A DNA stretch of 40,714 nt, from the NCBI GenBank assembly GCA_031274925.1, contig JAISPL010000019.1, forward strand, positions 1 to 40,714, read 5' to 3'. This document shows, piece after piece, positions 19,407 to 33,844 of this stretch (position 1 is its first letter; every line of letters starts with the position of its first letter). The position numbers were made by a program, and so were the translations under genes. Source of the DNA: Syntrophobacterales bacterium (GTDB lineage Bacteria > Desulfobacterota > Syntrophorhabdia > Syntrophorhabdales > Syntrophorhabdaceae). A model generated the notes under the pieces. It did not search any database. It was not told the DNA's origin and was given only the letters and a program-made list of their open reading frames with translations.

Positions 19407-21086
19407 TCATGGTAAAACCGGCTGCTTTATTAGTTCCTCCTGCTTTTGGACTACTTCCTCCAGAATATATTCGTCTTTGATTATAAATGAGGGTTCTTTC
19501 GCCGGATAATCTCTTATCTCGAATTTGCTCAAAGTGATGGATGGGTTGTTCGGTATCTTCACGTAGGCGTGAAGGTCTGGAAGGTTCATAAGTTCAGAAT
19601 CAAGGATTAAGCGCTGCCTTTTTTCCCGTTGCGTGAGAGACACGCCGTCCCGATAGTTAGATACTCCCATGTTAAAGGTTTCTTCCGTTTCTATGATTTC
19701 TTCATCCCCGATTTTGTCCACCAAATATTTCGCCGTTTTGGGATCGGATACCGCAAATATGACGGATGAACAACAGGCATTTACAATCGTGTCGGCCGCG
19801 TCCGGGGTATAGAGATTATTCAACTGCCTTATATCCTGTATCCCTATCCAGCAGGAACCTCCTTTGCTCCCGGAGGCGATAAGAAGTTCCTGGATACTTG
19901 ATAGCCGCTGCAGCGTCCCGAACTCATCGAGTAGAAAAAATACTCTCCTTTTGAGATCATCGGGAAGAGAAAGAAGTTTCTTCCCGAGAAAGTCAACAAA
20001 GAGAGAAAGGATAGGCTTCAATGTGTCGTCTGACTGATTTGTCACAAAGATGAACCCCGGTCTGTCATTTGAGAGCCAGTCGGTCACAGAAAAGGCGCTG
20101 TCTCCATGGGACATATATTGGAAGGCATGGGCGTACTGCGTCATGGCAGCAAAGACCGAGGAGAGTGTCTGCCTGGAACCCGCATCTTCAATGTAGCGAT
20201 ACCCCGCCTGGCCTTCCGGGGTTATTCTTAACCACTCATGTATTTTTTTAGCCGGCGCGGCAACTCCCTTCCATATGTCTGAATTGGTCTTGAAATTATT
20301 CCTCCAGAGATAGTGCAGTATGCCGGAAAAGACCTCTCTCGCTGCGTCGTTCCGGAATGTGTCGCCCGTATAAACAGGAGGTATCAATGAGGTAGCCGCG
20401 ACGTTAATGTCGCGCTTGGTCTTAATGTCGGAAAAGAGGTTCCATTCGACAGATCTTCGGTCTAAAGGATTGAAAATAATATCCCTTCGGGGATCATAGA
20501 ATCTTTCAACATAACCTCCATTAAAATCATAAACCACTGCTTTGGCTTCTCGTTCAATGAGTCTCTCCGTCACCTGAGAGAGAAAGACCGTCTTTCCCGC
20601 GCCCGGTCTCCCTACCGTCAGGCAGTGTTTTATCTCTTCCTGTTTGGGCAATCTGAATGAACCGAAAGGCAGATCCCCCGGTCCGATCTGCCGGGCGAAC
20701 TCCTGGGCGCTCACAAGCCTCGCACCGCGAAGGTGCTTCGTCTCAAGCTGCCTCTTTGATTTTCTTTTAAACATGGCAATCACAAAAGGACAGCCGCAAT
20801 AAACTACCGCGGTGAAAGTTAAAACATAGATAAAGTTCACGGAGAGATAGTCGAAATATGACCGCAGGATATATGTATCTGGCATATGGCCCGCTTTCAC
20901 TGAATCAAGCAGGTACCGTCCGAGAACCGCATACCTCTTTCCCTGAAGAAAGTAGGTTACAGTCAAAGCGGTGATGATGTGAATGACAAAGAATGCGAGG
21001 AAGACATACAGGTGCATCTTGAGCGCCATGCGAATGCCGTTGAACCATGTCTCAAACCCTTTATATGAGTTCGTTTTTTTTATCAT
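19407..21086 (-). CDS. Type IV coupling protein (VirD4/TraG/TraD family ATPase)
   Basis: The 559-residue ATPase would connect the relaxosome to the secretion channel. It has two N-terminal membrane segments (residues 26-45 and 86-105), Walker A GRPGAGKT at residues 159-166, Walker B RVFFLLDEFGTL near residue 355, and the conserved QD-type sensor (WIGIQDIRQL) near residue 390, all intact. The C-terminus is short with a charged tail. The ATG at 21086 overlaps the stop of the upstream small gene (ATGA). It is the last gene of the minus-strand transfer operon. No relaxase gene is in this window, so its DNA cargo partner must be elsewhere or lost. Confidence 0.92.
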   Translation of the reverse strand: MIKKTNSYKGFETWFNGIRMALKMHLYVFLAFFVIHIITALTVTYFLQGKRYAVLGRYLLDSVKAGHMPDTYILRSYFDYLSVNFIYVLTFTAVVYCGCPFVIAMFKRKSKRQLETKHLRGARLVSAQEFARQIGPGDLPFGSFRLPKQEEIKHCLTVGRPGAGKTVFLSQVTERLIEREAKAVVYDFNGGYVERFYDPRRDIIFNPLDRRSVEWNLFSDIKTKRDINVAATSLIPPVYTGDTFRNDAAREVFSGILHYLWRNNFKTNSDIWKGVAAPAKKIHEWLRITPEGQAGYRYIEDAGSRQTLSSVFAAMTQYAHAFQYMSHGDSAFSVTDWLSNDRPGFIFVTNQSDDTLKPILSLFVDFLGKKLLSLPDDLKRRVFFLLDEFGTLQRLSSIQELLIASGSKGGSCWIGIQDIRQLNNLYTPDAADTIVNACCSSVIFAVSDPKTAKYLVDKIGDEEIIETEETFNMGVSNYRDGVSLTQREKRQRLILDSELMNLPDLHAYVKIPNNPSITLSKFEIRDYPAKEPSFIIKDEYILEEVVQKQEELIKQPVLP

Positions 21087-21266
21087 TCTTCGTGCTTTTC
21101 TCCGTTTACGGTTACTTTGAGCTTCTTAAAACGCTCATTCAAGTCGTTGTTGTGGTGTGAATAGGCGATGGGATTTCCGGATATAGTCCGAAATGCTCCT
21201 GTCTCCCTTGAGGCGTTGCAATATTTTGTGCTCGCTATCGCTCAACTTAACCGATATTTGGTTCAT
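21083..21266 (-). pseudogene. Small ribbon-helix-helix-like gene with a probable frameshift
   Basis: The ATG at 21266-21264 overlaps the stop of the repaired ssb frame (TAATG). It reads MNQISVKLSDSEHKILQRLK then GDRSISDYIRK, a pattern like ribbon-helix-helix DNA-binding proteins of conjugative elements. As written it stops at 21135 after 43 residues. If one base is skipped near 21183 the other frame reads NPIAYSHHNNDLNERFKKLK and then VTVNGEKHEE, and it stops at 21083, overlapping the coupling-protein ATG. The tight overlaps at both ends suggest the 61-residue version is the ancestral gene. A relaxosome accessory role is inference. Confidence 0.5.
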
Positions 21267-21608
21267 TACTTCTCTCCGGTTTCCTGCTCCGAATCTCCTG
21301 CTTTTTTGAGAATAATCTCTATCTTCTCGACGTGGACGTTGTAATAGACAGTCCCATCTTTTTCTGTTGGTTCGCATATCGCCGGATAAAAATACAAAGT
21401 CGCCTTTCTTAACCTTGAGATTTTCAGCCATCTTACCAAAAACCTGACAGTTAAACCAGTCCTCATGAAAAATACTTTCGCCTGCTTCGTTTTTTCCATC
21501 GTACCGCTTTGTGCCGATGCTGAAAGTTGCCATCTTGCCATGCGCCGCATCGATGATTTTTGGTTCCCTTACATAGCCTGTAATTTGGATCCGGTTGACC
21601 GATTTCAC
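21266..21608 (-). pseudogene. ssb: Single-stranded DNA-binding protein (Ssb) with a one-base frameshift
   Basis: A GTG start at 21608 has a strong AGGAGG four bases before. The protein begins MKSVNRIQITGYVREPKI and has the OB-fold blocks IFHEDWFNCQVFGKMAENL and KKGDFVFLSGDMRTN (residues 46-81). At an A-run near 21366 the reading frame is lost. Skipping one base restores DGTVYYNVHVEKIEIILKKA and the end GDSEQETGEK, stopping at 21266 with overlap onto the next ATG. The repaired protein is about 114 residues, a normal short plasmid Ssb. Without the shift the product runs on to 157 residues with a nonsense tail. Ssb would coat transferred strands. Indel, sequence error or programmed shift cannot be told apart here. 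Confidence 0.8.
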
Positions 21609-21633
21609 AAGTCCTCCTTGTTTAATTCTGACT

Positions 21634-22947
21634 TTATGCAGCCTCTTTATACTGCTTAAGTATCAGATCCTTATTTACATACACATTGAATTTCATGCCT
21701 GGTCTGATCTCTATTGTGGGCTGCACGTTTAAGTTCCTGTTCGTAATATTCGCCCCCGCGGTGGAGATCTGCTGGGCCGCGCCCGATACCGCCTGCTGGG
21801 GGAATGTGGCGGTCCCTACGTCGTTGTTTCCCGCGGCTACCTTTGCGCCAGCCGAGAGTGTAGAGCTTAGTATCACACCGGCAATGAGCTTGCCGTAATG
21901 GTTATTTACCTTATCTTTCATGCCCGCATAGCCGGAGAGATCCACTCCCGCCATTCCTTCAAGGTCAATGGAATCGCCGTTCGGGAATATAAGTCTCGTC
22001 CAAACGATAAGTACTCTTTCCTGAGCGTAAGCTACCTTGGAGTCATACTTTCCGATTACCCGTGTTCCCTGCGGTATCAGCAGATACCTTCCGGTGACCG
22101 TATCATAGACATTCTCCCGCACTTGTCCGGTAAGATTGCCGGGCAAGTCGGAGTTGACCCCTGTGAGCATAACCCCGGGAATAATGGAACCCGCCTTGAC
22201 TTCATACTTTGATAGCGGTGATATGAGGGCGCCTTTTACATAGACGTCCTTTGTGAGGTTTTCATGATCCGATACAAATTCCCGCTTCGCGGTCTGCATG
22301 TTCTGATCGTCGTCCTTCTGCCACGGCATGATTGGCATGTTGAGCTGGGGAGGCATCATGGCGGGGATCGTCGGGAGAAATGGCGCTGCCGCCGTGGGCG
22401 TACTCGCTGAACCTAAGAATTTTATCGGGCTCTTTCTCGCGTCAAGACGATCCTTTTCCGCGTCCGACATCTGGGCCATCTGAGGGACGTTGCCGCCTGT
22501 CTGGGCGTTATATTGGCTGATGGAGGACGGAGATATGCTCCTTACGCTCCCCACGCCGCCCATATCCTGATCGGCAGCGGCTGCCTGCATTTCACCTTTT
22601 TTGATCTGCTGCGCCTCGTGAAAATCTCTCAGGCCGTCATAGGTGTCAGGCGCGTTGGAGATCACCTCCGTCGCAAGGACGTTCTCGGGGGAGGAAGGGG
22701 CCTTCTGTGACGCTTCGGCGGCCTCCTGGGGCGTGAGTTTCTTCGGGGGCTGAAGTGCCGACATAAACGTAAAAGCCATGACAAGTCCTGCCACCGAGGC
22801 GAGGATTATGAGCATTTTACGGTTAAATCTCGTGCCCGTAGGAGTAGGAGGATGGATAAAGCTGCCCGTTACCTCCTTGGGTTCCTCCGGCGGTCTGTCT
22901 GTCTTCTTCCTGACGAATGATGCGAGTTTATCCGGGATCTTCAACAC
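21634..22947 (-). CDS. trbI: TrbI / VirB10-like channel protein
   Basis: The 437-residue inner-to-outer membrane bridging component of the type IV secretion system has a short cytoplasmic N-terminus and one membrane segment (residues 44-64, MLIILASVAGLVMAF). A long Pro/Ala/Met-rich periplasmic region follows, then the conserved VirB10 domain with LIPQGTRVIGKYDSKVAYAQ, LIFPNGDSIDLEGMAG and the antenna-type hydrophobic helix KLIAGVILSSTLSAG. The frame opens with GTG-TTG, and TTG at 22944 has better spacing from GGGAGG. It follows trbG by nine bases. The order trbL-F-G-I matches the Ti-plasmid trb operon except that trbH is absent. Confidence 0.93.
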   Translation of the reverse strand: MLKIPDKLASFVRKKTDRPPEEPKEVTGSFIHPPTPTGTRFNRKMLIILASVAGLVMAFTFMSALQPPKKLTPQEAAEASQKAPSSPENVLATEVISNAPDTYDGLRDFHEAQQIKKGEMQAAAADQDMGGVGSVRSISPSSISQYNAQTGGNVPQMAQMSDAEKDRLDARKSPIKFLGSASTPTAAAPFLPTIPAMMPPQLNMPIMPWQKDDDQNMQTAKREFVSDHENLTKDVYVKGALISPLSKYEVKAGSIIPGVMLTGVNSDLPGNLTGQVRENVYDTVTGRYLLIPQGTRVIGKYDSKVAYAQERVLIVWTRLIFPNGDSIDLEGMAGVDLSGYAGMKDKVNNHYGKLIAGVILSSTLSAGAKVAAGNNDVGTATFPQQAVSGAAQQISTAGANITNRNLNVQPTIEIRPGMKFNVYVNKDLILKQYKEAA

Positions 22948-22955
22948 GTCCTCCC

Positions 22956-23951
22956 TTAGTCTTTTTCGATTTTCTTGATAATTACTCTTTCTTTGCCGTT
23001 TATCAATTCCGCCTGGGCAAAGAGGCGGTCTACTATGTAGTAGTTCCTCTTGACCCTGTAGTTAACGAGCATCAGGTTCTTCCCGTCGCTTACAAAGAGA
23101 GCGGGGGCCTCGCCTGATGACATTGTAGGGGACATCTGGATATAAGTTTTCATTCCGTCGTCAAAGACCATTCTTGGCGTCCAGGAATAGGAACCTCCGA
23201 AAAGACCGCTTTTTTCCTCTATTTTGTAACTAAAATTTATCTTCTCCGGGGTGATAAGGCCAGATACCTGCTCTTCTTCCTTTTCCTTCTTCACGGCCTC
23301 CTGCCGCAGGAAAGCCGCCTTCTCATCAAGCGGATAGGTCCATCCTATGATCGGATTGTAGGATTGCCCGGCGCGGGCCCTGATCTGGTAGGATCTTCTG
23401 TCCGTCGTGATTATGAAGTTGGTAGAGATGTTTGACTTCAAAGGTTTTACATATATGTGCCACTGCTTTGTATCTCCGCTTCCCGACTGCGCCCGGTCCA
23501 CCATCCAGCGGGTAGTATCTCCGCCCCCTACAAAGACCACTTCCTCTCCCGGTTGGAGCTGTATATCGGTTAAGTGCCCCTCGTGACAGTAGATCTGATA
23601 TATGCCGGTCTGTCGGTAGAAGAAGATGGATTTGGCACTGATCTGCACGGCTTCAGAAGCGTTCTCCACGCCCTCCCGCTCGGCTGCCTCTATGGATTTA
23701 GCTGCCTTGAGAGAGTCGCTTTCTTCCTTGGGGGTCATGGGGTCTTCATCCGGGGGCGTTGGTGTTGTTGTCTGTACAGGGCCGTCTCCCGCTCTGGCGG
23801 AAGGGATGACGCTTGCGTAAGGTAACAGGCAAAGGGCGATAAGCCCGGCGCCGAGTACGGCCACGAGATACGCCCTGTAGGCGTCTCTGAATGGAGAATC
23901 ACCTCCAAAAATGTTCCTAATTGCCTTATATGTGTCTTTGATGGCTTTCAT
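22956..23951 (-). CDS. trbG: TrbG / VirB9-like outer-channel protein
   Basis: VirB9-family periplasmic/outer-membrane subunit of the secretion core. The start at 23951 (MKAIKDTYKAI) has an AAAGGAGAGG ribosome site; a longer frame from 23984 would overlap trbF and lacks one. A hydrophobic export segment (YLVAVLGAGLIALCLLPYAS) is followed by an acidic Pro-rich linker and the family blocks IYQIYCHEGHLTDIQLQPGE, WHIYVKPLKSNISTNFIITT and YTWTP-like YSWTPRMVFDDGMKTYI. The C-terminal domain FVSDGKNLMLVNYRVKRNYY that binds VirB7 in other systems is present, although no trbH/virB7 lipoprotein gene is recognisable. It lies between trbF and trbI. Confidence 0.92.
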   Translation of the reverse strand: MKAIKDTYKAIRNIFGGDSPFRDAYRAYLVAVLGAGLIALCLLPYASVIPSARAGDGPVQTTTPTPPDEDPMTPKEESDSLKAAKSIEAAEREGVENASEAVQISAKSIFFYRQTGIYQIYCHEGHLTDIQLQPGEEVVFVGGGDTTRWMVDRAQSGSGDTKQWHIYVKPLKSNISTNFIITTDRRSYQIRARAGQSYNPIIGWTYPLDEKAAFLRQEAVKKEKEEEQVSGLITPEKINFSYKIEEKSGLFGGSYSWTPRMVFDDGMKTYIQMSPTMSSGEAPALFVSDGKNLMLVNYRVKRNYYIVDRLFAQAELINGKERVIIKKIEKD

Positions 23952-23965
23952 TTGTTCCTCTCCTT

Positions 23966-24658
23966 TTAAAGTTCCCTGGACCATGAAAAATCGCTTATGT
24001 ATAGTCCCAGCGGGTTTATCATGATCTCTTTTTCGCTTGAGGGCGGGGTAAAGTCGATGGTGATGAGACCGGTCATGCGGTAGGACTGCTTGGGGGAGCC
24101 TTCCTTGGAGAATACGTCTTCGGTCCAGCGTACCTGATAGGTCTTCTCCGACATCTTGACAATCGCAGTCGGTGTGACCGATATGGTCTCTTCCCCGATC
24201 TTGCTCATGGGATCGTCCTTTTTCAGGATCTCATTCATCTTGATCGCCGCTTTTTGCCGCATGGAGGCATACGCGCTTACGAAGGACTGCTTCTTGACCA
24301 CCGCGTCAAGAGGCAAGGCCCTTATATCTTTAACCCACTTGCCGAGAAAGTATTTGATCTCATTCTCGTTTGCCGAGCGGTTGGCCTGGGTGGCCTTACT
24401 CACTGCAAGGAGTTCCCCGGCCTGGCCCACTTCGATGATGTAGGGGGCTACAGATGATTTTGTTGACTGAAAGATTAACCCGAGGATTAGGACCAGGCAG
24501 AGACCCATGGCGGCGAAGGCGATGAGCCGCCAGTTATACGCCTGCATCCGCGCGGTCCCTATGCGGTTATCCCATATCTCCTTCGCCTTGAGGTAGGGGG
24601 TAAGAGGCAGGCCATCCGGTTTGTAGGTTTGGGTCGGCTGGTTGAATTCACTGCTCAT
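23966..24658 (-). CDS. trbF: TrbF / VirB8-like scaffold protein
   Basis: The 230-residue VirB8-family inner-membrane scaffold has a cytoplasmic N-terminus with YLKAKEIWDNRIGTARMQAY, typical of TrbF. One membrane segment (LIAFAAMGLCLVLILGLIFQ, residues 45-64) precedes a periplasmic domain with the family strands YQVRWTEDVFSKEG and YRMTGLITIDFTPP. It nucleates assembly of the channel by contacting VirB9/VirB10-type partners. The ATG at 24658 overlaps the trbL stop by four bases. Length and motifs are normal. Confidence 0.93.
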   Translation of the reverse strand: MSSEFNQPTQTYKPDGLPLTPYLKAKEIWDNRIGTARMQAYNWRLIAFAAMGLCLVLILGLIFQSTKSSVAPYIIEVGQAGELLAVSKATQANRSANENEIKYFLGKWVKDIRALPLDAVVKKQSFVSAYASMRQKAAIKMNEILKKDDPMSKIGEETISVTPTAIVKMSEKTYQVRWTEDVFSKEGSPKQSYRMTGLITIDFTPPSSEKEIMINPLGLYISDFSWSREL

Positions 24659-25938
24659 GATTTATCTCCTTTCGGGTCTGGTTTTGCGCTTCCTTTTGTG
24701 GCAGAAGGGGGAACTTTGTTATCTGCGTGATTCATGCGGGTTTTCATGGCCGCATAGTCCATACCGCTGGTACCGGAAAAACTGCCCCATCCTGCGCTGG
24801 ATGAGCCGCTTCGTGATGGCGGGCTTTTCCCTGCCCCGCCTGAACTCTTTATAAATCCGTCAGGGTCGGCAACGGCCCGCCTGCCGGTATTGTAGGATGA
24901 TTTTAAAGACTCTGTAACCGTGTTGATTCCCTTTGATATATAACCCGCGGCGAGGCCGGCTACTCCTCCCATTCTTCCTTCCCCTCTCATTTTTCCTTCC
25001 TTGGCGGCGCCGGCGGTCTGACTTATTCCCCCGGCGGCCGCCTTGACTGCGTTATAACCTTGCTTTGCCACGCCGGCAGCAGCTCCACCAAGTGTGGCTG
25101 CTGCCGAACCTGCGGAGGCTGCCGCGCTTGCGGCAGTCCCGGCGGTAAGCGAGGGACTCCCGGAGAGAAGGCTCGTTGCCACGGTAGGCGCGTGCCAGGC
25201 GAGGAAGGTAATTGCGAGAGAGCCGAGGAGAAGACAGAGGTCTTGTTGCAGGGTCGGATCTACAGGTAAGGTCCATGTCTGGACGAGAGGAATGGAAACA
25301 GCGGCGATAAACGCAAGGACCATGAGCTTAATTCCGAAAGAAAGAACCGCACCGATGGCCTTCTCCCCGAGAAAGGCGGTACGCCTGTTGACTCCAAAAG
25401 GGAGAAGGATAAGGGCCAGCGTGGATACAACATAGAATTCAAGGTAGGTGATGAATATTTGTATGCTGATGATGAAGAATAAAAAGACGATGAGTAAGCC
25501 GACAAGACCGGTGAAAGCTATGTCCGAGAGATTTTTCATCATGTCCATCACGCCTATATTTTTGATGTGATCAAAGATGGGAGCCGTGAGTATGATGCCT
25601 TGATCAGCCAGAGCAGACGGGTCTGTCAGTAGGGCGCTACTAAGCGATCCCCCTCCGGCTTTGAGACCTATTGCCGAAAAAGTGTTCGAGACAGTATTTA
25701 TTAGCATCTTATAATCCATGACGATCCATATAAAGAAGCCATATTTCAGAGTCTTCTGAATAAGGGTTTTCATATGGTCGCCGTCGCTGAGATTGAGAAC
25801 AACGGCGAGCACAAGGTCTATAACTATGAGTGTACCGAGAAGCCACTTGGCGTCGCCGTGGATGAAACCGATGCCGTTGATAAAGGCGAGACCGAAGCTT
25901 TTCAGGATAATAGTAAGTATTCCAACATCGGGTGTCAT
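24655..25938 (-). CDS. trbL: TrbL / VirB6-like polytopic membrane protein
   Basis: The 427-residue P-type conjugative transfer protein has five to seven membrane segments in the first 260 residues, including KWLLGTLIVIDLVLAVVLNL, LVGLLIVFLFFIISIQIFIT and STLALILLPFGVNRRTAFLG, the last being the family signature. A long Ala/Gly/Ser-rich cytoplasmic tail follows. It forms part of the inner-membrane pore. The ATG at 25938 follows eexN copy 1 by nine bases. Its first 80 codons are duplicated upstream at 27459-27719 with clearly similar nucleotide sequence. Confidence 0.93.
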   Translation of the reverse strand: MTPDVGILTIILKSFGLAFINGIGFIHGDAKWLLGTLIVIDLVLAVVLNLSDGDHMKTLIQKTLKYGFFIWIVMDYKMLINTVSNTFSAIGLKAGGGSLSSALLTDPSALADQGIILTAPIFDHIKNIGVMDMMKNLSDIAFTGLVGLLIVFLFFIISIQIFITYLEFYVVSTLALILLPFGVNRRTAFLGEKAIGAVLSFGIKLMVLAFIAAVSIPLVQTWTLPVDPTLQQDLCLLLGSLAITFLAWHAPTVATSLLSGSPSLTAGTAASAAASAGSAAATLGGAAAGVAKQGYNAVKAAAGGISQTAGAAKEGKMRGEGRMGGVAGLAAGYISKGINTVTESLKSSYNTGRRAVADPDGFIKSSGGAGKSPPSRSGSSSAGWGSFSGTSGMDYAAMKTRMNHADNKVPPSATKGSAKPDPKGDKS

Positions 25939-25944
25939 TTTTTT

Positions 25945-26032
25945 ATCCTAATATTGTTGTATTCCCGGTCCTTTGCCCGGTCCGTCAAGCGGTCTTCTCG
26001 GGGGGCCGAAATCAAACTGTCTTTTCAGATTG
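25945..26032 (-). repeat. Tail repeat copy A (3' end of eexN copy 1)
   Basis: Encodes RRPLDGPGKGPGIQQY plus the upstream QFDFGPP. The sequence is nearly the same as copies B and D, including the bases just after the stop. Confidence 0.8.
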
Positions 26033-26220
26033 GTGGCAGAATATGCATCAATAGCGGCACTACATTCCCTGTCAATCATTTTCTCGGCACTGGACAGACG
26101 CTTGCATTGTTCGATTTTTGCCTTCATTTCTTCTGGATGTTGTTCGTAATATTCAACGGTTTTTGACCCGCAGGCCGGAAATAACATAGCAATGGCAACA
26201 AGAAGTAATAGTTTTTTCAT
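25948..26220 (-). CDS. EexN/TrbK-like entry-exclusion lipoprotein, copy 1
   Basis: The 90-residue predicted lipoprotein has the signal MKKLLLLVAIAMLFPACGS, with the lipobox Cys at residue 17. The mature part VEYYEQHPEEMKAKIEQC contains the W/Y-Y-x-x-H-P-E-E pattern and paired Cys of the EexN family (the second is ECSAA). Such proteins in the mating-pair apparatus block entry of related elements into a cell that already holds one. A ribosome site AGGAG precedes the ATG. It lies in the trbK position between trbJ and trbL. The last 25 residues (NLKRQFDFGPPRRPLDGPGK onward) are not typical of the family and are almost identical to the TrbJ tail. Confidence 0.8.
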   Translation of the reverse strand: MKKLLLLVAIAMLFPACGSKTVEYYEQHPEEMKAKIEQCKRLSSAEKMIDRECSAAIDAYSATNLKRQFDFGPPRRPLDGPGKGPGIQQY

Positions 26221-26225
26221 AAATT

Positions 26226-26282
26226 CTCCTAGAATTATTTGATGTGGGAACCCTTACCCGGTTCTTGTAAAGGGTCTTTTAT
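26226..26282 (-). repeat. Tail repeat copy F (3' end of eexN copy 2, divergent)
   Basis: Encodes KDPLQEPGKGSHIK. It is the most diverged of the six copies but keeps the PLxxPGKG core and the same position relative to the next ribosome site. Confidence 0.65.
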
Positions 26283-26519
26283 AATATACTTATCAAGCGG
26301 ATTCTCTAGAATTATTGGAAGAAATTGATTGGAAGCCGCCTCTTCGGCTGCCGTGCACTCTCTGTCAGCCATTTTCTCGGCTTTGGACATTCGTTTTCTG
26401 CACTCTAGAAGTTTCTCTCTCAGTTCTACGCGGTGTTTTTCATAATACTTTGCATCCTTTTTTGACCCACAACCCGGAAATAACATAGCAATGGCAACAA
26501 GAAGTAATAATTTTTTCAT
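26235..26519 (-). CDS. EexN/TrbK-like entry-exclusion lipoprotein, copy 2
   Basis: The start ATG at 26519 follows AGGAGAT. A longer frame from 26600 runs through the trbJ 3' end and is rejected. The 94-residue product has the same lipoprotein signal (MKKLLLLVAIAMLFPGCGS, Cys17) and core DAKYYEKHRVELREKLLEC, with a second Cys in ADRECTAAEEA. In this copy the H-P-E-E pattern is H-R-V-E. Its middle differs from copy 1, and its tail KDPLQEPGKGSHIK is a diverged version of the shared tail. It lies between trbJ and eexN copy 1. Divergence among copies suggests different exclusion specificities, which is inference. Confidence 0.78.
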   Translation of the reverse strand: MKKLLLLVAIAMLFPGCGSKKDAKYYEKHRVELREKLLECRKRMSKAEKMADRECTAAEEAASNQFLPIILENPLDKYIIKDPLQEPGKGSHIK

Positions 26520-26526
26520 GTTTGAT

Positions 26527-26618
26527 CTCCTAATATTGTTGTATTCCCGGCCCCTTACCCGGTCCTGCAAGCGGACTTTTTCTCGGGGGGCCGAAGTCAA
26601 GCTGCCTTTTCAAATTTG
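26527..26618 (-). repeat. Tail repeat copy B (3' end of trbJ)
   Basis: Encodes LKRQLDFGPPRKSPLAGPGK and on to GPGIQQY at the end of TrbJ. It carries one additional codon relative to copy A and is otherwise closely similar. Confidence 0.8.
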
Positions 26619-27321
26619 TCTCCGACATTGCCTGCTTCTGCGCTTCCGCTGCAAAGTACGATGTTTGCGCCCTATTGCTCGCGGCGACTATTTCCTGAAG
26701 GCGCATAAGCTGTTGCACGGTCATACCTGATAATTGATTTCCTACCTGGGCGGCAGAAACAGCGCCTGATGCTGATTGGGATGCTTGTATCAGGCTTCTA
26801 AGGTTGGCTTCATCATCTCCTATCTGTGCGGTCAGTCCCTGCGCTCTCATGGCATCGTAGGCGCTGTTGCTGCTTTGGTCTAAGAGCTTTTGAGCCTGAT
26901 TTGCATATTCTTTGGCGGGAGTGTTGTTATTGTAGCTCGCAAAGTTCTTATATACGCTGTCATAGGCGTTTTGGAGCCGGGCGTAGTCCATGGAGATACC
27001 GCGCATGCTGTCCCTTACCGTGGCAAGGGCCGACATATTGGCCTGTATCCGGGACAGGGAAAGGGACGCGGCAGAGGGACTCATGTGCTGGAGATTTCTC
27101 GCCTGGTTCTCCAAGGCTCGCATCTGATTCTCAATCTGTGTGGCTGTGTTGGACGCTGTCTCAAGCTGCTTGAGATAGCTCTGGATCGCCTGCACGTAGA
27201 CGGACGGATCAAAGACTATATCTCCGACTCCGAGTATGGCTTGGCAGGGAGAATACAGGAGCATGGACAGCAGTAAAACAATACCGATAAAAAGGTACTT
27301 TAGGTACTTCCAACGAATCAT
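26530..27321 (-). CDS. trbJ: TrbJ / VirB5-like minor pilus protein
   Basis: The 263-residue secreted component has a signal peptide (residues 1-28, ending SPCQA) and a long helical coiled region (AIQSYLKQLETASNTATQIE, then NQMRALENQARNLQ). The C-terminal helix MTVQQLMRLQEIVAASNRAQ is characteristic of TrbJ. It is thought to sit at the pilus tip or base and aid host contact. A strong AAAGGAGG ribosome site supports the ATG at 27321. The last 28 residues (NLKRQLDFGPPRKSPLAGPG onward) match the tails of the neighbouring exclusion lipoproteins, so this end has probably been exchanged or duplicated. Confidence 0.9.
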   Translation of the reverse strand: MIRWKYLKYLFIGIVLLLSMLLYSPCQAILGVGDIVFDPSVYVQAIQSYLKQLETASNTATQIENQMRALENQARNLQHMSPSAASLSLSRIQANMSALATVRDSMRGISMDYARLQNAYDSVYKNFASYNNNTPAKEYANQAQKLLDQSSNSAYDAMRAQGLTAQIGDDEANLRSLIQASQSASGAVSAAQVGNQLSGMTVQQLMRLQEIVAASNRAQTSYFAAEAQKQAMSETNLKRQLDFGPPRKSPLAGPGKGPGIQQY

Positions 27322-27458
27322 TCATTACCTCCTTTTAGGTTTTTTTCTTCTAACAAATATTATGTAACCGGTTCTCTTGCTTATACACCCTTTAAACGGC
27401 CTTCCAGCCTTACTCTCCCAAAGGCTAGCGGGGAGTACAGACCTCAAAAGCCGAACGA

Positions 27459-27719
27459 TCATGCCTCAAAACCTGAATTTACGAGGCTCCTGTAATCCAT
27501 GACAAACCAAATAAAAAAACCGTACTTCAAGGTCTTCTGAATAAGGGTCTTCATATGGTCGCCATCGCTGAGATTGAGAACCACGGCGAGGGTGAGGTCT
27601 ATGACTATGAGCGTACCGAGAAGCCATTTGGCGTTGCCGTGGATAAAACCGATGCCGTTTGTAAAGGCATCGCGGAAGCTGCTTAAGAGTGTGGTAAGTA
27701 TACCGGCATCGGGTGTCAT
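27459..27719 (-). pseudogene. Truncated duplicate of trbL (first ~80 codons)
   Basis: The frame begins MTPDAGILTTLLSSFRDAF and continues NGIGFIHGNAKWLLGTLIVI, the same as the start of the full trbL at 25938 with scattered changes. After YRSLVNS it diverges and stops. Only the first two membrane segments remain, so it is unlikely to work as a pore. It has its own ribosome-site-like AGGATAG and sits directly after eexN copy 3, repeating the eexN-trbL order found further along. The 139 bases between it and trbJ (27322-27458) hold no gene. Confidence 0.85.
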
Positions 27720-27724
27720 TTTTC

Positions 27725-27778
27725 TATCCTAAAATTGTTTTATTCCCGGTCCGTTACCCGGTCCCTGCAAAGGATTTT
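27725..27778 (-). repeat. Tail repeat copy C (3' end of eexN copy 3)
   Basis: Encodes ENPLQGPGNGPGIKQF. It shares the CCCGGT-rich core and the ATTGTT end with copies A, B and D. Confidence 0.75.
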
Positions 27779-27989
27779 CTTTTATGGTACTTTTGAAGAA
27801 GCGTTTGGAAATAACATTGTTAACCGCCGCACACTCTCTGTCAGCCATTTTTTCCGCTTGAGACATCCTGCCGCATGCTTCTATCTTCGCTCTCATCTCT
27901 TCGGGGTGTTTTTCATAGTATTCAGCGGTTTTTGATCCGCAGGCCGGGAGTAACATAGCAACGGCGACAATAAGTAATAATTTTTTCAT
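27729..27989 (-). CDS. EexN/TrbK-like entry-exclusion lipoprotein, copy 3
   Basis: The 86-residue lipoprotein has signal MKKLLLIVAVAMLLPACGS with lipobox Cys17, core AEYYEKHPEEMRAKIEAC, and second Cys in ADRECAAVNN. The Y-Y-E-K-H-P-E-E block is the closest of the four to the EexN consensus. AGGAGGATAAAACC precedes the ATG at 27989, a strong ribosome site. The tail ENPLQGPGNGPGIKQF is the shared module. It is followed by the truncated trbL copy, so the eexN-trbL pair exists twice in the operon. Confidence 0.8.
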   Translation of the reverse strand: MKKLLLIVAVAMLLPACGSKTAEYYEKHPEEMRAKIEACGRMSQAEKMADRECAAVNNVISKRFFKSTIKENPLQGPGNGPGIKQF

Positions 27990-28003
27990 GGTTTTATCCT
28001 CCT

Positions 28004-28081
28004 AAAATTGTTGTATTCCCGGACCCTTGCCCGGACCGTCAAGGGGTCTTCTCGGGGGGCCAAGGTCAAACCTACTTTTCT
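28004..28081 (-). repeat. Tail repeat copy D (after the amber codon of eexN copy 4)
   Basis: In frame with eexN copy 4 beyond its TAG, it would encode SRFDLGPPRRPLDGPGKG and on to PGIQQF with a stop at 28002. It is closely similar to copy A. Confidence 0.8.
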
Positions 28082-28262
28082 ATTTGGCATCAATGGCGGC
28101 GACACACTCTTCGTCAGAAAGGATCTCCATTATGGTCATTCGTTCACACTTTTCCAGCTTCGCCTTCATCTCTTTAGGGTGTTTCTCGTAGTACTCTTTG
28201 GTCTTTGCCCCGCAGGCCGGAAGTAACATAGCGATGGCAACAAGAAGCAATAGTTTTTTCAT
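28080..28262 (-). CDS. EexN/TrbK-like entry-exclusion lipoprotein, copy 4 (amber-shortened)
   Basis: The 60-residue lipoprotein has signal MKKLLLLVAIAMLLPACGA (Cys17), core KEYYEKHPKEMKAKLEKC, and second Cys in DEECVAAIDAK. It stops at a TAG (28080-28082), but the same frame continues for 25 more codons through tail repeat copy D to a second stop at 28002. The ancestral protein was therefore about 86 residues and has been shortened by a nonsense change. The EexN core is complete, so the short form may still be exported and function. AGGAGAATAAAATC precedes the ATG. Confidence 0.78.
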   Translation of the reverse strand: MKKLLLLVAIAMLLPACGAKTKEYYEKHPKEMKAKLEKCERMTIMEILSDEECVAAIDAK

Positions 28263-28266
28263 GATT

Positions 28267-28542
28267 TTATTCTCCTAAAAATGTTGTATTCCCGGACCCT
28301 TCCCCGGTCCCTGTAAGGGGCGCTGTATATGGTCTCCGCGGTACATTTGAATAAAGGTTTCCCGCTTGAGGAGGAAACTTCCCCTTGGGTGCGATCTTCT
28401 CCCGGACTTCCTTGGCTTGTGTCTGCGCCTCTGTATATATTTCCTGACCGGCGTATCCCGCGATACGCTCTAAGAGAACTTTTGTTTCTGAATCAATTTT
28501 AGTAAATTCTTCCCCTGCTTTTTTGGTTTCGTCATCCATCAT
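28267..28542 (-). CDS. Small hypothetical protein between trbE and the exclusion genes
   Basis: The 91-residue hydrophilic protein is not recognised. The ATG-ATG start overlaps the trbE stop. The body (AGEEFTKIDSETKVLLERIA, then GQEIYTEAQTQAKEVREKIA) is helical and acidic/basic with no signal or membrane segment. Its 3' end overlaps tail repeat copy E, but a one-base length difference puts the repeat out of frame, giving PYTAPLTGTGEGSGNTTFLG instead of GPGKGPGIQ. Either the tail frame was lost by an indel or the repeat was acquired without regard to frame. The position suggests a T4SS accessory role, which is only inference. Confidence 0.55.
   Translation of the reverse strand: MMDDETKKAGEEFTKIDSETKVLLERIAGYAGQEIYTEAQTQAKEVREKIAPKGKFPPQAGNLYSNVPRRPYTAPLTGTGEGSGNTTFLGE
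28270..28325 (-). repeat. Tail repeat copy E (3' end of the small gene after trbE)
   Basis: Contains the CCGGGAATACAACA core followed by TTTTTAGGAG, one base longer than copies A and D, so it is read in a different frame. Confidence 0.7.
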
Positions 28543-30959
28543 GATTCTTCTCCTTGTACAGTCTCAAAGAATGATGAATCAAGATTCTTGTATCTCAGCC
28601 AGGCGTTATTAAAATCTTCCCCGGCTGCCTGGATCTCGCTCACCATCTTTCGGTCATCGGGGGAGCTTGATCCGCAGTAAGCGAGAGCCAAAGGCCCAAG
28701 GGCAAGATCAAAGAGCCTGGATCCTTCGGGCGACTTGTAGTAATACTGCCTTTTAGGGGTGGCCGTGCCGATGATCTGCACTTCCCGAGAATTGAGGCCA
28801 TAACCCTGGTAAATGGCGGCCATCCGCTCATCAAGAGCGTTGGAGTTGGGGAGATAAATCTTGGTGGGGCAGGATTCCTTGATCACGGCCGATATGGAGC
28901 TATTCTCCACATCCTGGAGCGACTGGGTCGCAAATACCACTGCCACGTTGGCCTTACGTAAGACTTTGAGCCATTCCCGGATCTTCGCGGCAAAGATGGG
29001 ATTGTCCAAAAAGAGCCAGCACTCATCAAGAAAGAGGATGGTAGGCGATCCGGTAAATCTCTGCTCAAGGCGATGGAAGAGATAGGAGAGGGCGGGCGGC
29101 ACTGCCGCTCGTGTCTCCATGAGCTTCGCCATCTCAAAGACCTGCCAGCGGCCATAGGAGAGCGTGTCGTGACTTGAGTCGAAGAGACGGCCAAAGGAAC
29201 CGGCAATGGTCGCGGGTTCCAGGGCTTGCCGGAGTTTAGTGTCTTGAAGAAGCAGAGTAAAGCCGGTCAGGGTGCGCTGCTCAGGAGGGGAAGATGAGAG
29301 AGACTTCAGGGCCGTCCATACGGCCTTTTTGACGTCGGGGTTGACTTCTACATTTTCTGCCCGGAGGAAGTCATATATCCACTCGGCCGCCCAGGAGATC
29401 TCAAGCTCGTTATCAATCGCGGCTAAGGGCTGAAACGAGAGCGTCCCCCCCGATGTATCTGCGCCGAGGTCGTAAAAATCCCCTCCTACTCCCGCCGTGA
29501 GCGCCTTAATGGAGCCGTCCTTGTCAAAGAAGTATATCTGGGCGTCTTTATATCGCCTGAATTGCGCGGCGAGGATTGCAAGGAGCACCGACTTGCCGGA
29601 ACCTGTCGGTCCGACTATCATGGTATGGCCCACGTCGTCGATGTTAAGGTTGAGGCGGAAGGGCGTGTTCCCTGAGGTCTCCGTGTGCATGAGGACCGGG
29701 GCATTTAAGTGAGTATTCATCTCAGGGCCTGCCCACGGAGCCGATAAGGGGAATATGTGCGCGAGGTTCATGGAACTCATGAGGGGCCGCCTTACATTCG
29801 CTCGGGGGATGCAGGGGAGCGAGCCGAACCAGGCGTCGACCGCGTTCACTGTTTCGTTGATCACCGTAAAACCCAGACTGGTTATTGTCTTCTCAACGGC
29901 CCGTACTTTCTTTTGCGCTAAGATGGGATCTTTATCCCATACGATAATCGACGCGGTGTAGTATCCATAACTTACAATGTCGTCGGCCACCTCCTGTAAA
30001 GCTGCGTCGGCGTCGGCCGCCTTATTCATGGCGTCGTTATCCACCATGGCGCTTTCTGTCTGGGTGATGGTTTCCTTGATAAGGACTCCGACACTCTTTC
30101 TTTTGGCAAACCATTGGCGGCGGTATTTGCCAATCTCAGATAAAGCGTCGCGTTTATCCATGGGAAGGTACCGGGTCACCCAGCGGTACCCAAAGTTGAG
30201 TCTGTTGAGATTATCCAGCAGGCCAGGCACGGTTGATCCAGGAAAGCCCATAATGGAGATAACTCTAAGGTGATAGTCTCCAAGGCGTGGTTCAAAGCCG
30301 GAGATAAGGGGGGTGTCCGCAAGTAAGGCGTCGATATACATGGGTATTTCAGGGGCTATAACCGGGTGTCTCTTGGGGGAGATGCAACTGTGGAGATAGG
30401 TTAGCGTCTCGCTGTCGGTAAGCGGCCTTGCCTCAGGAAGAACCTCTGAGAGAAGGGAATAGATCCTGTCCGTTTCCGTGATAAACGCCTTCAGATGAGC
30501 CTGATATGTCTCCTGCTCTTTTTCATGGCCCTTGCCTCTTTCGATGAAGGCTTTCTCTACCTTCTGGTGGCGCTCCGGGGGAGGAAGATAGAGCAGGGTA
30601 AGATAATATAGACTCTCGTAGTGGTTGCCGAGAGAAAAAAATACCCTCCTTTCTTCCTCAATCAGAAGAGTCACCGGGTCAGGGAACCCCGACTCTGGGT
30701 ATTCCTGGCTGCGCATCCTTTGCGCCTCGGTATAGATTGCCCAGCCGCCGGAGAGGCGCTTGATCGCATTATTGAGCCGGGCGGTGATTGAGACGAGCTC
30801 GGCAGGGGTGGCGCTGTCCAAGTCCGGCCCCCGGAAAGCATAAGATTTCTGGAAGGAGCCGTCCTTGTTGAGCACCACCCCCGGAGCGACGAAGGCCGCC
30901 CAGGGGAGGAAGTCGGATAGTTTGTCAGATTTTTTCTGGTATTCTCTGAGATTGAGCAT
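28539..30959 (-). CDS. trbE: TrbE / VirB4-like conjugation ATPase
   Basis: Large motor ATPase of the secretion channel, about 806 residues from the preferred ATG at 30959 (MLNLREYQKKSDKLSDFLPW, the usual TrbE start). A longer frame to 31010 overlaps trbD by 50 bases and is less likely. The CagE/TrbE/VirB4 N-terminal domain covers the first 240 residues. Walker A GPTGSGKS is at about residues 450-457, and Walker B is in TILFLDECWLF. Later ATQSLQDVENSS supplies the sensor region. The protein appears intact. It starts just after the trbD stop and overlaps the next small gene at its 3' end. Confidence 0.95.
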   Translation of the reverse strand: MLNLREYQKKSDKLSDFLPWAAFVAPGVVLNKDGSFQKSYAFRGPDLDSATPAELVSITARLNNAIKRLSGGWAIYTEAQRMRSQEYPESGFPDPVTLLIEEERRVFFSLGNHYESLYYLTLLYLPPPERHQKVEKAFIERGKGHEKEQETYQAHLKAFITETDRIYSLLSEVLPEARPLTDSETLTYLHSCISPKRHPVIAPEIPMYIDALLADTPLISGFEPRLGDYHLRVISIMGFPGSTVPGLLDNLNRLNFGYRWVTRYLPMDKRDALSEIGKYRRQWFAKRKSVGVLIKETITQTESAMVDNDAMNKAADADAALQEVADDIVSYGYYTASIIVWDKDPILAQKKVRAVEKTITSLGFTVINETVNAVDAWFGSLPCIPRANVRRPLMSSMNLAHIFPLSAPWAGPEMNTHLNAPVLMHTETSGNTPFRLNLNIDDVGHTMIVGPTGSGKSVLLAILAAQFRRYKDAQIYFFDKDGSIKALTAGVGGDFYDLGADTSGGTLSFQPLAAIDNELEISWAAEWIYDFLRAENVEVNPDVKKAVWTALKSLSSSPPEQRTLTGFTLLLQDTKLRQALEPATIAGSFGRLFDSSHDTLSYGRWQVFEMAKLMETRAAVPPALSYLFHRLEQRFTGSPTILFLDECWLFLDNPIFAAKIREWLKVLRKANVAVVFATQSLQDVENSSISAVIKESCPTKIYLPNSNALDERMAAIYQGYGLNSREVQIIGTATPKRQYYYKSPEGSRLFDLALGPLALAYCGSSSPDDRKMVSEIQAAGEDFNNAWLRYKNLDSSFFETVQGEES

Positions 30960-30960
30960 G

Positions 30961-31209
30961 TCAAGTTCCGTAGTATGATTTTTGTTTGATGTGGCGGCGG
31001 AAACAGTCAAAGAACTGGGGGTCGCGCTTGGTCATAACGACTGCCGCGATGTGGACGAAGAGACAGAAGGGGATCACATAGAAGGAGTGGAGGGCTATAC
31101 CAAAGGCGGCGCCGATGGTGCCGTTAAGAATGGCAACCGACCGGGGTACTCCCCCCATGAGGATTTGTTCGGTTAACGCCCTGTGAAGCGGTATCTCGTA
31201 TCCCTCCAT
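30961..31209 (-). CDS. trbD: TrbD / VirB3-like membrane protein
   Basis: The 82-residue inner-membrane protein has the family pattern IPLHRALTEQILMGGVPRSV followed by two hydrophobic stretches (AILNGTIGAAFGIALHSFYV and IPFCLFVHIAAVVM) and a basic end DPQFFDCFRRHI. VirB3-type proteins pair with the VirB4 ATPase, whose gene follows directly. It starts four bases after the trbC stop. Confidence 0.92.
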   Translation of the reverse strand: MEGYEIPLHRALTEQILMGGVPRSVAILNGTIGAAFGIALHSFYVIPFCLFVHIAAVVMTKRDPQFFDCFRRHIKQKSYYGT

Positions 31210-31213
31210 GGCC

Positions 31214-31522
31214 CTACCTCATAAAGCAGCCGCCGGTGAAGCCGAAGAAGGCGAGACCGAAGGTGCTTGCGGAGAAGGCTATTGAGAGACCGAAGACTAT
31301 GCCCAGGGCCTTTTTCATGAGGCCGCCGCCTTCTCCAAAGGCAAGGCCAAGGCCCGTCAGGGCGATGGCGAGGACACCGGCGATCTTAGCGACAGGTCCC
31401 GTTATGGAATCAAGGATCCTCTGAAGAGGACTTTCCCACGGCAGACCGGAACTTGCGGCATGGGCGAGGACGGGCAGCAAAAGGATTGCCGCCATGATCA
31501 ACAAAACCGAATAGCGCTTCAT
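31214..31522 (-). CDS. trbC: TrbC / VirB2-like pilin
   Basis: The 102-residue prepilin has a signal peptide cleaved after AHA (residue 22), then two long hydrophobic helices (IAGVLAIALTGLGLAFGEGG and ALGIVFGLSIAFSASTFGLA) separated by a short loop. In RP4-type systems TrbC is trimmed and cyclised by TraF, whose homolog is encoded upstream in this operon, so a circular pilin is plausible. A strong AGGAGG ribosome site lies in the end of trbB. Confidence 0.92.
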   Translation of the reverse strand: MKRYSVLLIMAAILLLPVLAHAASSGLPWESPLQRILDSITGPVAKIAGVLAIALTGLGLAFGEGGGLMKKALGIVFGLSIAFSASTFGLAFFGFTGGCFMR

Positions 31523-31533
31523 ATAAAAACCTC

Positions 31534-32492
31534 CTAAAGTAAGTTCTTGACGACATAATCGCCGCCTGTAAATCCCGTCACCTCGATGATTTCCTGGATT
31601 CTTCTGGAGTGACGGTAACGCTCAATGTAAATAACGTTGTTCACCGCCTCGGCGATAAGGGCCTGCTGCGGTGTTGGTATTGCCTCCTAATTAGCTGCTC
31701 AAGGCGGGTAAGTCCCCCTTTTGCGCTATTGGCATGAACTGTGGCAACGCCTCCGGGGTGGCCCGTGTTCCATGCTTTGAGTAAGGTCAGGGCCTCCGGG
31801 CCTCTCACTTCTCCGACGATAATTCTATCCGGCCGGAGCCTCATGGTGGCCTTTAAGAGATCATTCATGGAGACATGATCCCGGGAGCGCAGGAATACAG
31901 TATCCGGCGCGGTGCATTGGAGTTCCAGGGTATCTTCAATGATTATGCAGCGATCCTGGGTTTTCGAGACTTCATGGAGTACCGCGTTGGCGAGGGTGGT
32001 CTTGCCGGAACCCGTCCCGCCTACGATAAGGATATTCTTTTTTTGCTGGACCGCTTCGATGATTTTTTCTTTTTGAGACTCGGTTATAATGCCGTCTCTG
32101 ATGTAATCGTTGAGCGTAAAGACCATGAGCGCCTTTTTGCGTATGGTAAAGACGGGAGTGGAAGTGACAGGGGGCAGCATCCCCTGAAAGCGGCTTCCGC
32201 TGCCCGGAAGTTCCGTTGATACCATGGGGTACGCGGCATTGCATATTGATCCGGTGGAACTGGCGGCGAGCTCAATGACACGCTGGGCGTCCGCGGGGGA
32301 CATGGTGGCTCCGGTATCTGATCTGCCGGCTCCCAGGCGGTCTTCCCATAGACGGCCATCGGGATTAAGCATCAACTCTACTACCGAGGGATCGGCAAGA
32401 AGTTTATTCACGTGAGGTCCAAGGGCCGTACTTAGCATCTCAAGCAGTCTGTGGTCGTGAGTATCTGTGTGGAGATCCCGTACATTGTTCAT
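31534..32492 (-). CDS. trbB: TrbB / VirB11-like secretion ATPase with a C-terminal frameshift
   Basis: Hexameric traffic ATPase. The N-terminal domain covers residues 1-125. Walker A GGTGSGKT is at 158-165, followed by the Asp box IIIEDTLELQC, Walker B-region RPDRIIVGEVRGPEAL and the His box GGVATVHANSAKGGLTRLEQ. Near 31687 the frame is lost one base short (after RLEQLI). As read the protein ends at 31641 with a nonsense tail. The neighbouring frame continues AIPTPQQALIAEAVNNVIYI to a stop at 31534, restoring a normal end of about 318 residues. The catalytic core is intact in both readings. The ATG overlaps the stop of the upstream transglycosylase gene. Confidence 0.88.
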
Positions 32493-33094
32493 GGGGCGTC
32501 GTCCTTACGGTAAAAGGTGATAGCATTGATGGGTTCGCAGGGGATTGTGCGGAGGGAGTGAGTGCGAGCTGAGCGAGTTGATACGAGACGGGTAGTGTGC
32601 GTTGGTAAGCAATCTATGCCGCGGGCTTTTTTGAGGATTTTTGTAACATAGCGGGTTCCTTTGTACGGAGTGCCGGTATTGTAAGAAGAAAGGGCTTTAA
32701 GAAGAATAAGGTCAGGAGAATCTTTGGGGTTTTTGTCCCGATGGCGATAATAAAAGTCTGCTAAGATCTCCGTGCCGACCCTGATATTTGTACAGGGATC
32801 GAAAAGGCTTTCATGGTCTATTTTTTTCTTTCTCAGGTGCCAAGAGTTGATCTGCATGAGGCCCATGTCTATGGAGCGGCCGCTCTTAAGGAGTCTGCTT
32901 GCAATCTCGGCAGCCTCGGTGCGGCTGGAAGGAGTGTAGGAGGTTCCGGTGTCGTTATCGTGGATGGCGAGAGGGTTGCCGGAACTTTCTACGTCGATTA
33001 TGGCTTGGGTGGTCGCAGGATGGACCTCGGGGCCGCAGGTTGTAAGTGTGGACAAACCAAAAACGCCGGCTAAGAAGAAGATGGCCCCGATCAT
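32489..33094 (-). CDS. VirB1/TrbN-like lytic transglycosylase
   Basis: The 201-residue exported murein hydrolase would open the peptidoglycan layer for the channel. A hydrophobic N-terminal export segment is followed by AIIDVESSGNPLAIH, with the catalytic Glu36, and by the family GLMQINSWHL block and ALSSYNTGTPYKGTRYV. These are standard SLT-domain landmarks. The C-terminus is a basic Thr/Ser/Arg-rich tail. It lies between traF and trbB, overlapping trbB by four bases. The position differs from RP4, where trbN follows trbM. Confidence 0.88.
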   Translation of the reverse strand: MIGAIFFLAGVFGLSTLTTCGPEVHPATTQAIIDVESSGNPLAIHDNDTGTSYTPSSRTEAAEIASRLLKSGRSIDMGLMQINSWHLRKKKIDHESLFDPCTNIRVGTEILADFYYRHRDKNPKDSPDLILLKALSSYNTGTPYKGTRYVTKILKKARGIDCLPTHTTRLVSTRSARTHSLRTIPCEPINAITFYRKDDAP

Positions 33095-33103
33095 ACCCTG
33101 CGC

Positions 33104-33643
33104 TTACCAATACCAGAGGGGGGTCGCTTTACCTTTAATGGAACTTACCGGAACAGCACCGAAGTATCTTCCGTCAAAAGAGCGTGAATAAGGGGAGATG
33201 GGCAGAAATGTCCCTGACTTAACTGTGTGGATGCCTGTAATTCTGGGTAGTGTTCCTCCTTCGCCGTCTTGGGTATAGACCGCGCCGATGTACTTATTGT
33301 TGATACAAAAAGAAGCGCCCTCTATGGAGAACGTATCTCCGGCGAGGGCGCCGATTTGCTTGATGAGAGGCCAGCCTGCCGGGAGCCAGCGGCGGCCATA
33401 AATATAGGGGCGGGCCACCTCAGGGGGGTCAAAGACGACCAGATCACCCGGGGTGAGGGCGGCAGCGGGGGTGATCTTATAGATGCCAAGGGGCATACTT
33501 GATGAGAGGTTCAGGTAGTAACGCTTTTGAGGGTTACTTGCGAGAATAGACAGAAGCGGCAATATTGTTGCTATGGATATTATAATCAGAATGTTACGTT
33601 GCCGTGTTGATACAGAAAAAGAATTAGTCCGTGCGCTTCTCAT
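33104..33643 (-). CDS. traF: TraF-type conjugal transfer peptidase (S26 family)
   Basis: The 179-residue membrane-anchored serine peptidase has an N-terminal membrane segment (residues 18-36), the nucleophile Ser49 in LSSSMPLGIYK, and the general-base Lys95 in PLIKQIGALAGD, both typical of the S26 signal-peptidase fold. TraF in RP4 processes and circularises the TrbC pilin. It is the first gene of the long transfer operon, with two promoters and palindromic sites just upstream (33657-33811). Confidence 0.92.
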   Translation of the reverse strand: MRSARTNSFSVSTRQRNILIIISIATILPLLSILASNPQKRYYLNLSSSMPLGIYKITPAAALTPGDLVVFDPPEVARPYIYGRRWLPAGWPLIKQIGALAGDTFSIEGASFCINNKYIGAVYTQDGEGGTLPRITGIHTVKSGTFLPISPYSRSFDGRYFGAVPVSSIKGKATPLWYW

Positions 33644-33656
33644 TCATCATTCCCTT

Positions 33657-33684
33657 ATTTGGGTAGAATTTATCCTAAATAGGG
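33657..33684 (-). promoter_or_regulatory. Palindromic operator-like site upstream of traF
   Basis: Imperfect inverted repeat CCTTATTTGGG and CCTAAATAGGG separated by about ten bases and overlapping the -10 region of the proximal promoter. A related half-site (CCTAAAGAGGG) occurs in the distal promoter at 33789-33799. A repressor-binding role is inference. Confidence 0.5.
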
Positions 33685-33696
33685 TGTAACTGTCAA
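33669..33696 (-). promoter_or_regulatory. Proximal promoter of the transfer operon
   Basis: On the minus strand TTGACA (plus 33691-33696) and GATAAA (plus 33669-33674) are separated by 16 bases, about 26 bases before the traF start. Confidence 0.6.
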
Positions 33697-33729
33697 GAAG
33701 AAGCCACCATAATTTATCGAAAGATTTTA
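33670..33729. repeat. 60-base direct repeat, copy 1 (promoter-proximal)
   Basis: It matches 33785-33844 at 57 of 60 positions. It carries one promoter and a relic of the 3' end of the MobC-like gene. Confidence 0.9.
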
Positions 33730-33783
33730 TTGATGTACTAATAAAAATACAGACAATATTTAGAGGATGTAACGTATATCTAC

Positions 33784-33811
33784 ATTATCCTAAAGAGGGT
33801 GTAACTGTCAA
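33784..33811 (-). promoter_or_regulatory. Distal promoter of the transfer operon
   Basis: On the minus strand TTGACA (plus 33806-33811), a 16-base spacer and GATAAT (plus 33784-33789, five of six matches) form a better promoter than the proximal copy. Confidence 0.65.
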
Positions 33812-33844
33812 GAAGAAACCATCATAATTTATCGAAAGATTTTA
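33785..33844. repeat. 60-base direct repeat, copy 2
   Basis: It overlaps the last seven codons and stop of the MobC-like gene, so this is the original copy and 33670-33729 is the duplicate, offset by exactly 115 bases. Confidence 0.9.

Follow-up and report, generated by a model that had tools for sequence, protein, structure and literature searches.

A C-terminal peptide shared by VirB5/TrbJ and Eex proteins is a candidate self-recognition element of MPF_T entry exclusion

The 40,714-nucleotide contig JAISPL010000019.1 (assembly GCA_031274925.1, Syntrophobacterales bacterium, family Syntrophorhabdaceae), hereafter the window, carries a conjugative transfer (trb) operon in which genes for entry exclusion (Eex) lipoproteins of the EexN family accompany the gene for the VirB5-like protein TrbJ. 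The VirB5/TrbJ protein and its cognate Eex protein have a common C-terminal peptide that differs between elements and matches within one. We propose, with a probability of about two in three (0.66), that this shared tail is a self-recognition element of entry exclusion in mating-pair formation type T (MPF_T) systems and that Eex may display a decoy of the tail of its own VirB5. Slightly less firmly, we consider it probable that exclusion across MPF_T would work by molecular mimicry, with the fit between the peptide and the donor site for the VirB5 tail serving as an identity code that separates kin from stranger.

Six copies of the tail repeat were identified in the window, all on the minus strand and each at a gene end (Table 1). 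The repeat encodes (P)L-x-GPGKGPGI-x-x-[YF]. Five copies match ATNCCNGGNCCNTTNCCNGG exactly, compared with a chance expectation of 0.40 (≤2 mismatches allowed), and none of 100 shuffles reached five. In nearly all copies the Shine-Dalgarno sequence of the following gene overlaps the stop codon that closes the tail (TTAGGAG), which confirms the description in an initial annotation, made from the sequence alone, of six repeats at gene ends with the next ribosome site close by. The core peptide given there was too short, as the shared part extends over ~28 residues (TNLKRQ(F/L)DFGPPR...), 25 of 28 being identical between eex_a and TrbJ. That annotation also assigned the tail to four EexN-like lipoproteins and TrbJ. 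The family identities hold: the lipoproteins reached 40-45 bits with NF033894 (curated cut-off 33 bits), and TrbJ reached 110.8 bits with TIGR02780 (cut-off 100.55 bits) in addition to its place in the trb gene order. However, only TrbJ, eex_a, and eex_c have an intact in-frame tail. The tail of eex_b is degenerate (DPLQEPGKGSHIK), that of eex_d is cut off by a preceding in-frame TAG, and that of eex_c is a variant (SKRFFKSTIKENPLQGPGNGPGIKQF) similar to the tail of UBA2221, a genome from another family of the same order.

Related operons were located using TrbE as the upstream anchor. UBA2221 has a simple trbE-trbJ-eex-trbL operon, and its TrbJ and Eex tails have a sequence of their own (RPLQGSGKGPGAREY and RPLQGSGNGPGAKQY, respectively). 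Matched tails, again with their own sequences, were found in HGW-Deltaproteobacteria-1, a fen Syntrophaceae, Geomonas, and an unclassified proteobacterium. The hypothesis was recorded before a wider survey of elements began. Matched elements in that survey were pTiC58, R751, IncP-alpha (represented by plasmid pBS228), a 303-kb E. coli plasmid, IncI2, PromA-like elements, elements of P. fragi, P. syringae, and Piscirickettsia, Ti- and IncP-like elements in genomes, and further EexN operons; matches were weaker for R388 (IncW), R46 (IncN), and IncX. Examples of VirB5/Eex tail pairs are REQFFNAPTNDIRGGQTMEPRW / RERFFGGDPDRDVRGGQEMKPRW (Ti), LRQGSYRASPARTW / LRRGGDFKPSPKREW (R751), QQLNAPTADLNNL / KQLNAPTPDLNNL (L109), and SSGEPFELD / SSGEPFELN (L115). 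Some families have Gly/Pro-rich tails, others charged, helix-like ones. Viral contigs scanned with TrbE gave no matches.

Two arrangements in the survey differ from the single-lipoprotein layout. IncI2 plasmid pGD27-63 (L103, 2210-2764) has two adjoining eexN genes after the virB5-like gene, both with tails resembling the VirB5 end. At L036 (2311-2586), trbJ is followed by a gene for a small, apparently membrane-anchored non-lipoprotein that closely repeats approximately the last 32 residues of TrbJ, and this protein is a candidate exclusion protein outside the EexN family.

Cognate and swapped tails were compared by local alignment of the last 30 residues of VirB5 with the last 45 residues of Eex, using one pair per VirB5 family. 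The tested loci were those with a small gene recognized beside trbJ, which leaves out, for example, L039 and L043-L045. Across 24 VirB5 families, the cognate mean was 48.1 versus 17.9 for swapped pairs, a value reached by none of 100,000 permutations, and the cognate pair ranked first in 15 of the families. The window pair scored 131 (rank 1). For the 18 families added once the hypothesis was on record (without L036), the means were 33.3 and 17.5, and again no permutation reached the cognate value. No signal was obtained when three other VirB5 segments were compared with the Eex tail or when the VirB5 tail was compared with two other Eex segments, including the N-terminal part. Cognate pairs also exceeded swapped pairs within families (stratified permutation p 5e-5; IncP-like families alone, p 4e-4), indicating that the tails diverge in step. 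The stratified total does not count the Tn4371-type families, in which co-variation with the adjacent gene is absent.

The likeness lies at the level of protein, with DNA identity as low as ~0.5-0.6. For the TrbJ and eex_a tails of the window, the proportions of differing silent (pS) and replacement (pN) sites were 0.38 and 0.05; pS/pN was 0.78/0.26 for UBA2221, 0.69/0.21 for Ti, 0.55/0.15 for HGW, and 0.60/0.24 for L036. Silent changes far outnumber replacement changes in most pairs, often near saturation, with the peptide retained. The likeness is thus not generally due to recent copying of DNA. By this measure, selection maintains the TrbJ peptide and at least that of eex_a. Purely recent tandem duplication was ruled out by the silent-site counts. 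Gene position was also informative. At Tn4371-type loci (L131, L132, and L134, with L071, L074, and L069), the EexN gene whose tail matches that of TrbJ (RKRFYGDGETPYTP / RRRFLGDG-TPYTP; scores 44-59) lies next to a LysR-like gene, ~7 kb upstream of trbJ, whereas the lipoprotein adjoining trbJ scores only 21-25. The Geomonas eex lies beyond trbL and its tail is still matched. Judged from these sequences, the tail match tracks function, not adjacency.

These data bear on the proposal that the repeat is a recombination joint, that is, a DNA module of gene end plus ribosome site that allows in-frame duplication or swapping of eex genes and is homogenized by gene conversion, the peptide itself having no function. 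Parts of the local history agree with it. The repeat holds the overlap of stop codon and Shine-Dalgarno sequence, and the spacings of eex_d/eex_b, eex_c/eex_a, and the trbL fragment/trbL (1743, 1769, and 1781 bases), together with the 83% identity of both trbL starts, indicate that a ~1.77-kb block was tandemly duplicated long ago, with a truncated trbL copy that the initial annotation had missed. In C45, a second remnant within the same genome, the tails of a TrbJ end and an Eex hardly differ at silent sites (pS 0.11), so copying at the DNA level does occur. The tail copy in the small open reading frame (ORF) beside trbE is most similar to the TrbJ end of this remnant; it is out of frame, as initially described, but looks like a leftover trbJ end rather than a sixth carrier protein. 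Tandem duplication multiplied the eex cassettes of the window, several of which are in decay; gene conversion possibly contributed, and this multiplication was probably helped by a repeat that covers the tail together with the following ribosome site. As an account of the general pattern, a recombination joint with a functionless peptide is distinctly unlikely, since the excess of silent over replacement changes, the low DNA identity, and the sharing of the tail where eex does not adjoin trbJ all stand against it.

The initial annotation had offered both a recombination joint and a functional peptide. The joint survives for some of the local multiplication and fails for the general pattern, whereas the functional peptide gains support and generality from the element-specific tails matched between TrbJ/VirB5 and Eex in many unrelated operons. 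Two outcomes had been named there as counting against its proposal. A tail confined to TrbJ and a single lipoprotein is exactly what UBA2221 has, yet it favors the functional reading because the TrbJ-Eex pair is itself the unit. Purely recent duplication with no selection on the tail codons disagrees with the silent-site counts.

In the mechanism we propose, the protein at the tip of the donor's pilus, VirB5/TrbJ, ends in the element-specific peptide and Eex ends in a copy of it. Eex is predicted to be lipid- or transmembrane-anchored with a periplasmic C-terminus. Where the recipient already carries the element, its Eex would offer the peptide to the incoming donor machine and fill the site for the VirB5 tail, and transfer would abort. 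This site must be element-encoded, because the peptide differs from element to element. VirB6/TrbL would be the favored site, as it carries VirB5 and has an F-type relative that is targeted in exclusion; the second candidate is VirB5 itself. An AlphaFold model of Eex (confidence 67) shows an unordered tail after a helical hairpin, which is compatible with a decoy tail. The TrbJ model is all-helical but of a confidence too low for use (pLDDT 47), and by sequence TrbJ has no solved relative.

Published work offers several points of contact. VirB5 forms the tip of the pilus and is seated on VirB6 as a pentamer, and no receptor is known for the type IV secretion system (T4SS) (PMC12624023, PMC9259494). 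The F-type exclusion protein TraS targets the VirB6-like TraG (PMC12624023). TrbJ alone or TrbK alone in the recipient gives protection against the RP4 machine, whereas R388 or R6K gives none (PMC11045733). For IncP TrbK, the C-terminal region is essential to exclusion, IncP-beta is excluded less well by IncP-alpha TrbK, and no donor factor is known (PMC8923210). The last 8 residues of IncP-alpha TrbK (pBS228) fall inside the shared tail. RP4 TrbK without its 8 C-terminal residues reportedly loses exclusion and keeps processing (Haase et al., 1996).

Several observations weigh against a decoy tail as a general explanation. Three of the 24 families (the pKPC_UVA01 type, L037, and L053) had no match, and the KlebMPFT family was at chance level for its adjacent gene. 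Among the tail pairs on their own records, the IncN pair ranked 24 of 325 and the IncW pair 118 of 1430; the R46 and R388 pairs are individually weak and unremarkable alone. The TrbK-alt protein adjacent to trbJ at Tn4371-type loci has only RxRF[LF] in common with TrbJ, without co-variation. The pN values are lowered somewhat by local alignment, which selects the best-matching residues. Finally, TrbJ and TrbK of the pKPC_UVA01 type (L141, 25095-26365) have no common tail, and pKPC_UVA01 TrbK also excludes IncP and IncN; tail matching is thus not the sole route to exclusion, and this broad-range protein probably works differently. Truncation data for pKPC_UVA01 TrbK were dropped as direct support, since it has no tail in common with its TrbJ.

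Two other functional explanations were considered. A universal sorting signal was ruled out, since the sequence differs between elements. A narrower version, in which both tails bind a single T4SS partner (VirB6 or another) within the same cell and exclusion is a by-product, draws on the periplasmic location and co-encoding of the two proteins and on the R388 machine, where VirB5 is placed on VirB6 (PMC9259494). Such docking, which overlaps in part with the decoy explanation, is unlikely, given that Eex/TrbK is dispensable for transfer (PMC8923210) and that a general signal should not vary in each element. Alternatively, the target of the Eex tail might be the like tail carried by the incoming VirB5 tip, not the partner of VirB5. 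The many pairs with identical or near-identical tails and the protection given by recipient TrbJ (PMC11045733) fit such homotypic pairing. It has no structural support, and a shared self-pairing chemistry is hard to reconcile with the spread among families from Gly/Pro-rich tails to charged, helix-like ones, so we regard it as very improbable.

The trb genes of the window are in the order trbB-C-D-E-(eex)-J-(eex)-L-F-G-I. The eex genes are arranged as trbJ-eex_b-eex_a-trbL and eex_d-eex_c-trbL fragment, in agreement with the position of EexN genes, and by inspection all four products have an N-terminal signal with a lipobox (MKKLLLLVAIAMLFPACGS and variants; Cys17 invariant). By profile score and position, the Eex proteins belong to EexN and the larger protein to TrbJ, as ordinary family members. 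No convincing homolog of the small ORF was found in the five genomes searched.

Table 1. Genes and tail copies around trbJ in the window
Feature	Position	Strand	Family match or identity	Tail copy
trbE (VirB4-like)	28539..31010	-	84% identity with UBA2221 TrbE	
Small ORF, 91 aa	28267..28542	-		28278-28325, other reading frame
eex_d, EexN-family lipoprotein	28080..28262	-	NF033894 42.7 bits	ends at in-frame TAG
eex_d tail sequence past stop codon	28005..28079	-		28005-28079, 1 TAG inside match
eex_c, EexN-family lipoprotein	27729..27989	-	NF033894 40.4 bits	27732-27809, variant
trbL-start duplicate, truncated	27459..27719	-	TrbL family match; 83% DNA identity to 25696-25983	
trbJ (VirB5-like)	26530..27321	-	TIGR02780 110.8 bits	26533-26619
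eex_b, EexN-family lipoprotein	26235..26519	-	NF033894 40.5 bits	26238-26276, degenerate
eex_a, EexN-family lipoprotein	25948..26220	-	NF033894 45.3 bits	25951-26034, intact
trbL (VirB6-like), next after eex_a	24655..25938	-	PF04610 3.4e-25; TIGR02783 141.3 bits	

The trb/tra block spans 19407-34061, from a coupling protein at 19407 through a NikA-like protein ending at 34061, and no relaxase gene was recognized for it. Its flanks look chromosomal (LepA-like, 8087-9883; IlvD-like, 35487-37145; both named by eye from the sequence). Both trbB (31641-32492) and an ssb-like gene (21135-21608) lose frame close to their 3' ends. These frame losses, along with eex_d and the truncated trbL, suggest that the element is partly decayed or that the assembly contains sequencing errors.

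The closest known systems are EexN/TrbK (IncN pKM101/R46, IncW R388, IncP RP4/R751, and Ti TrbK), which share with the window genes the family or the virB5-virB6 position and a lipoprotein or membrane anchor, and whose characterized members act in recipient-side exclusion. Unlike the window, which has four copies, several decaying, those are known as single genes, and they have no known donor target. The pKPC_UVA01 TrbK gene likewise lies between trbJ-like and trbL-like genes, and its product has an essential C-terminal region (PMC8923210); it differs in its length (~152 aa), lack of tail match to its TrbJ, broad range, and need for a donor copy as well. In the F-type system a recipient membrane protein, TraS, recognizes the VirB6-like donor protein TraG in an element-specific manner (PMC12624023). 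No account of a tail common to VirB5 and Eex turned up in a literature search that left most subscription journals and all preprints outside its reach; the shared tail is likely, though not proven, to be new. We know of no copied VirB5 tail described for TraS-TraG.

MPF_T comprises a very large group of conjugative plasmids of Gram-negative bacteria, many of which carry antibiotic resistance. Exclusion has been known for decades without its donor-side target, as stated for IncP (PMC8923210), and the VirB5-Eex peptide is a candidate, at the sequence level, for the exclusion code. If this proposal is true, exclusion groups would be predictable from sequence, the protection that recipient TrbJ, like TrbK, gives against the RP4 machine would be accounted for, and short peptides might serve as probes or inhibitors of conjugation.

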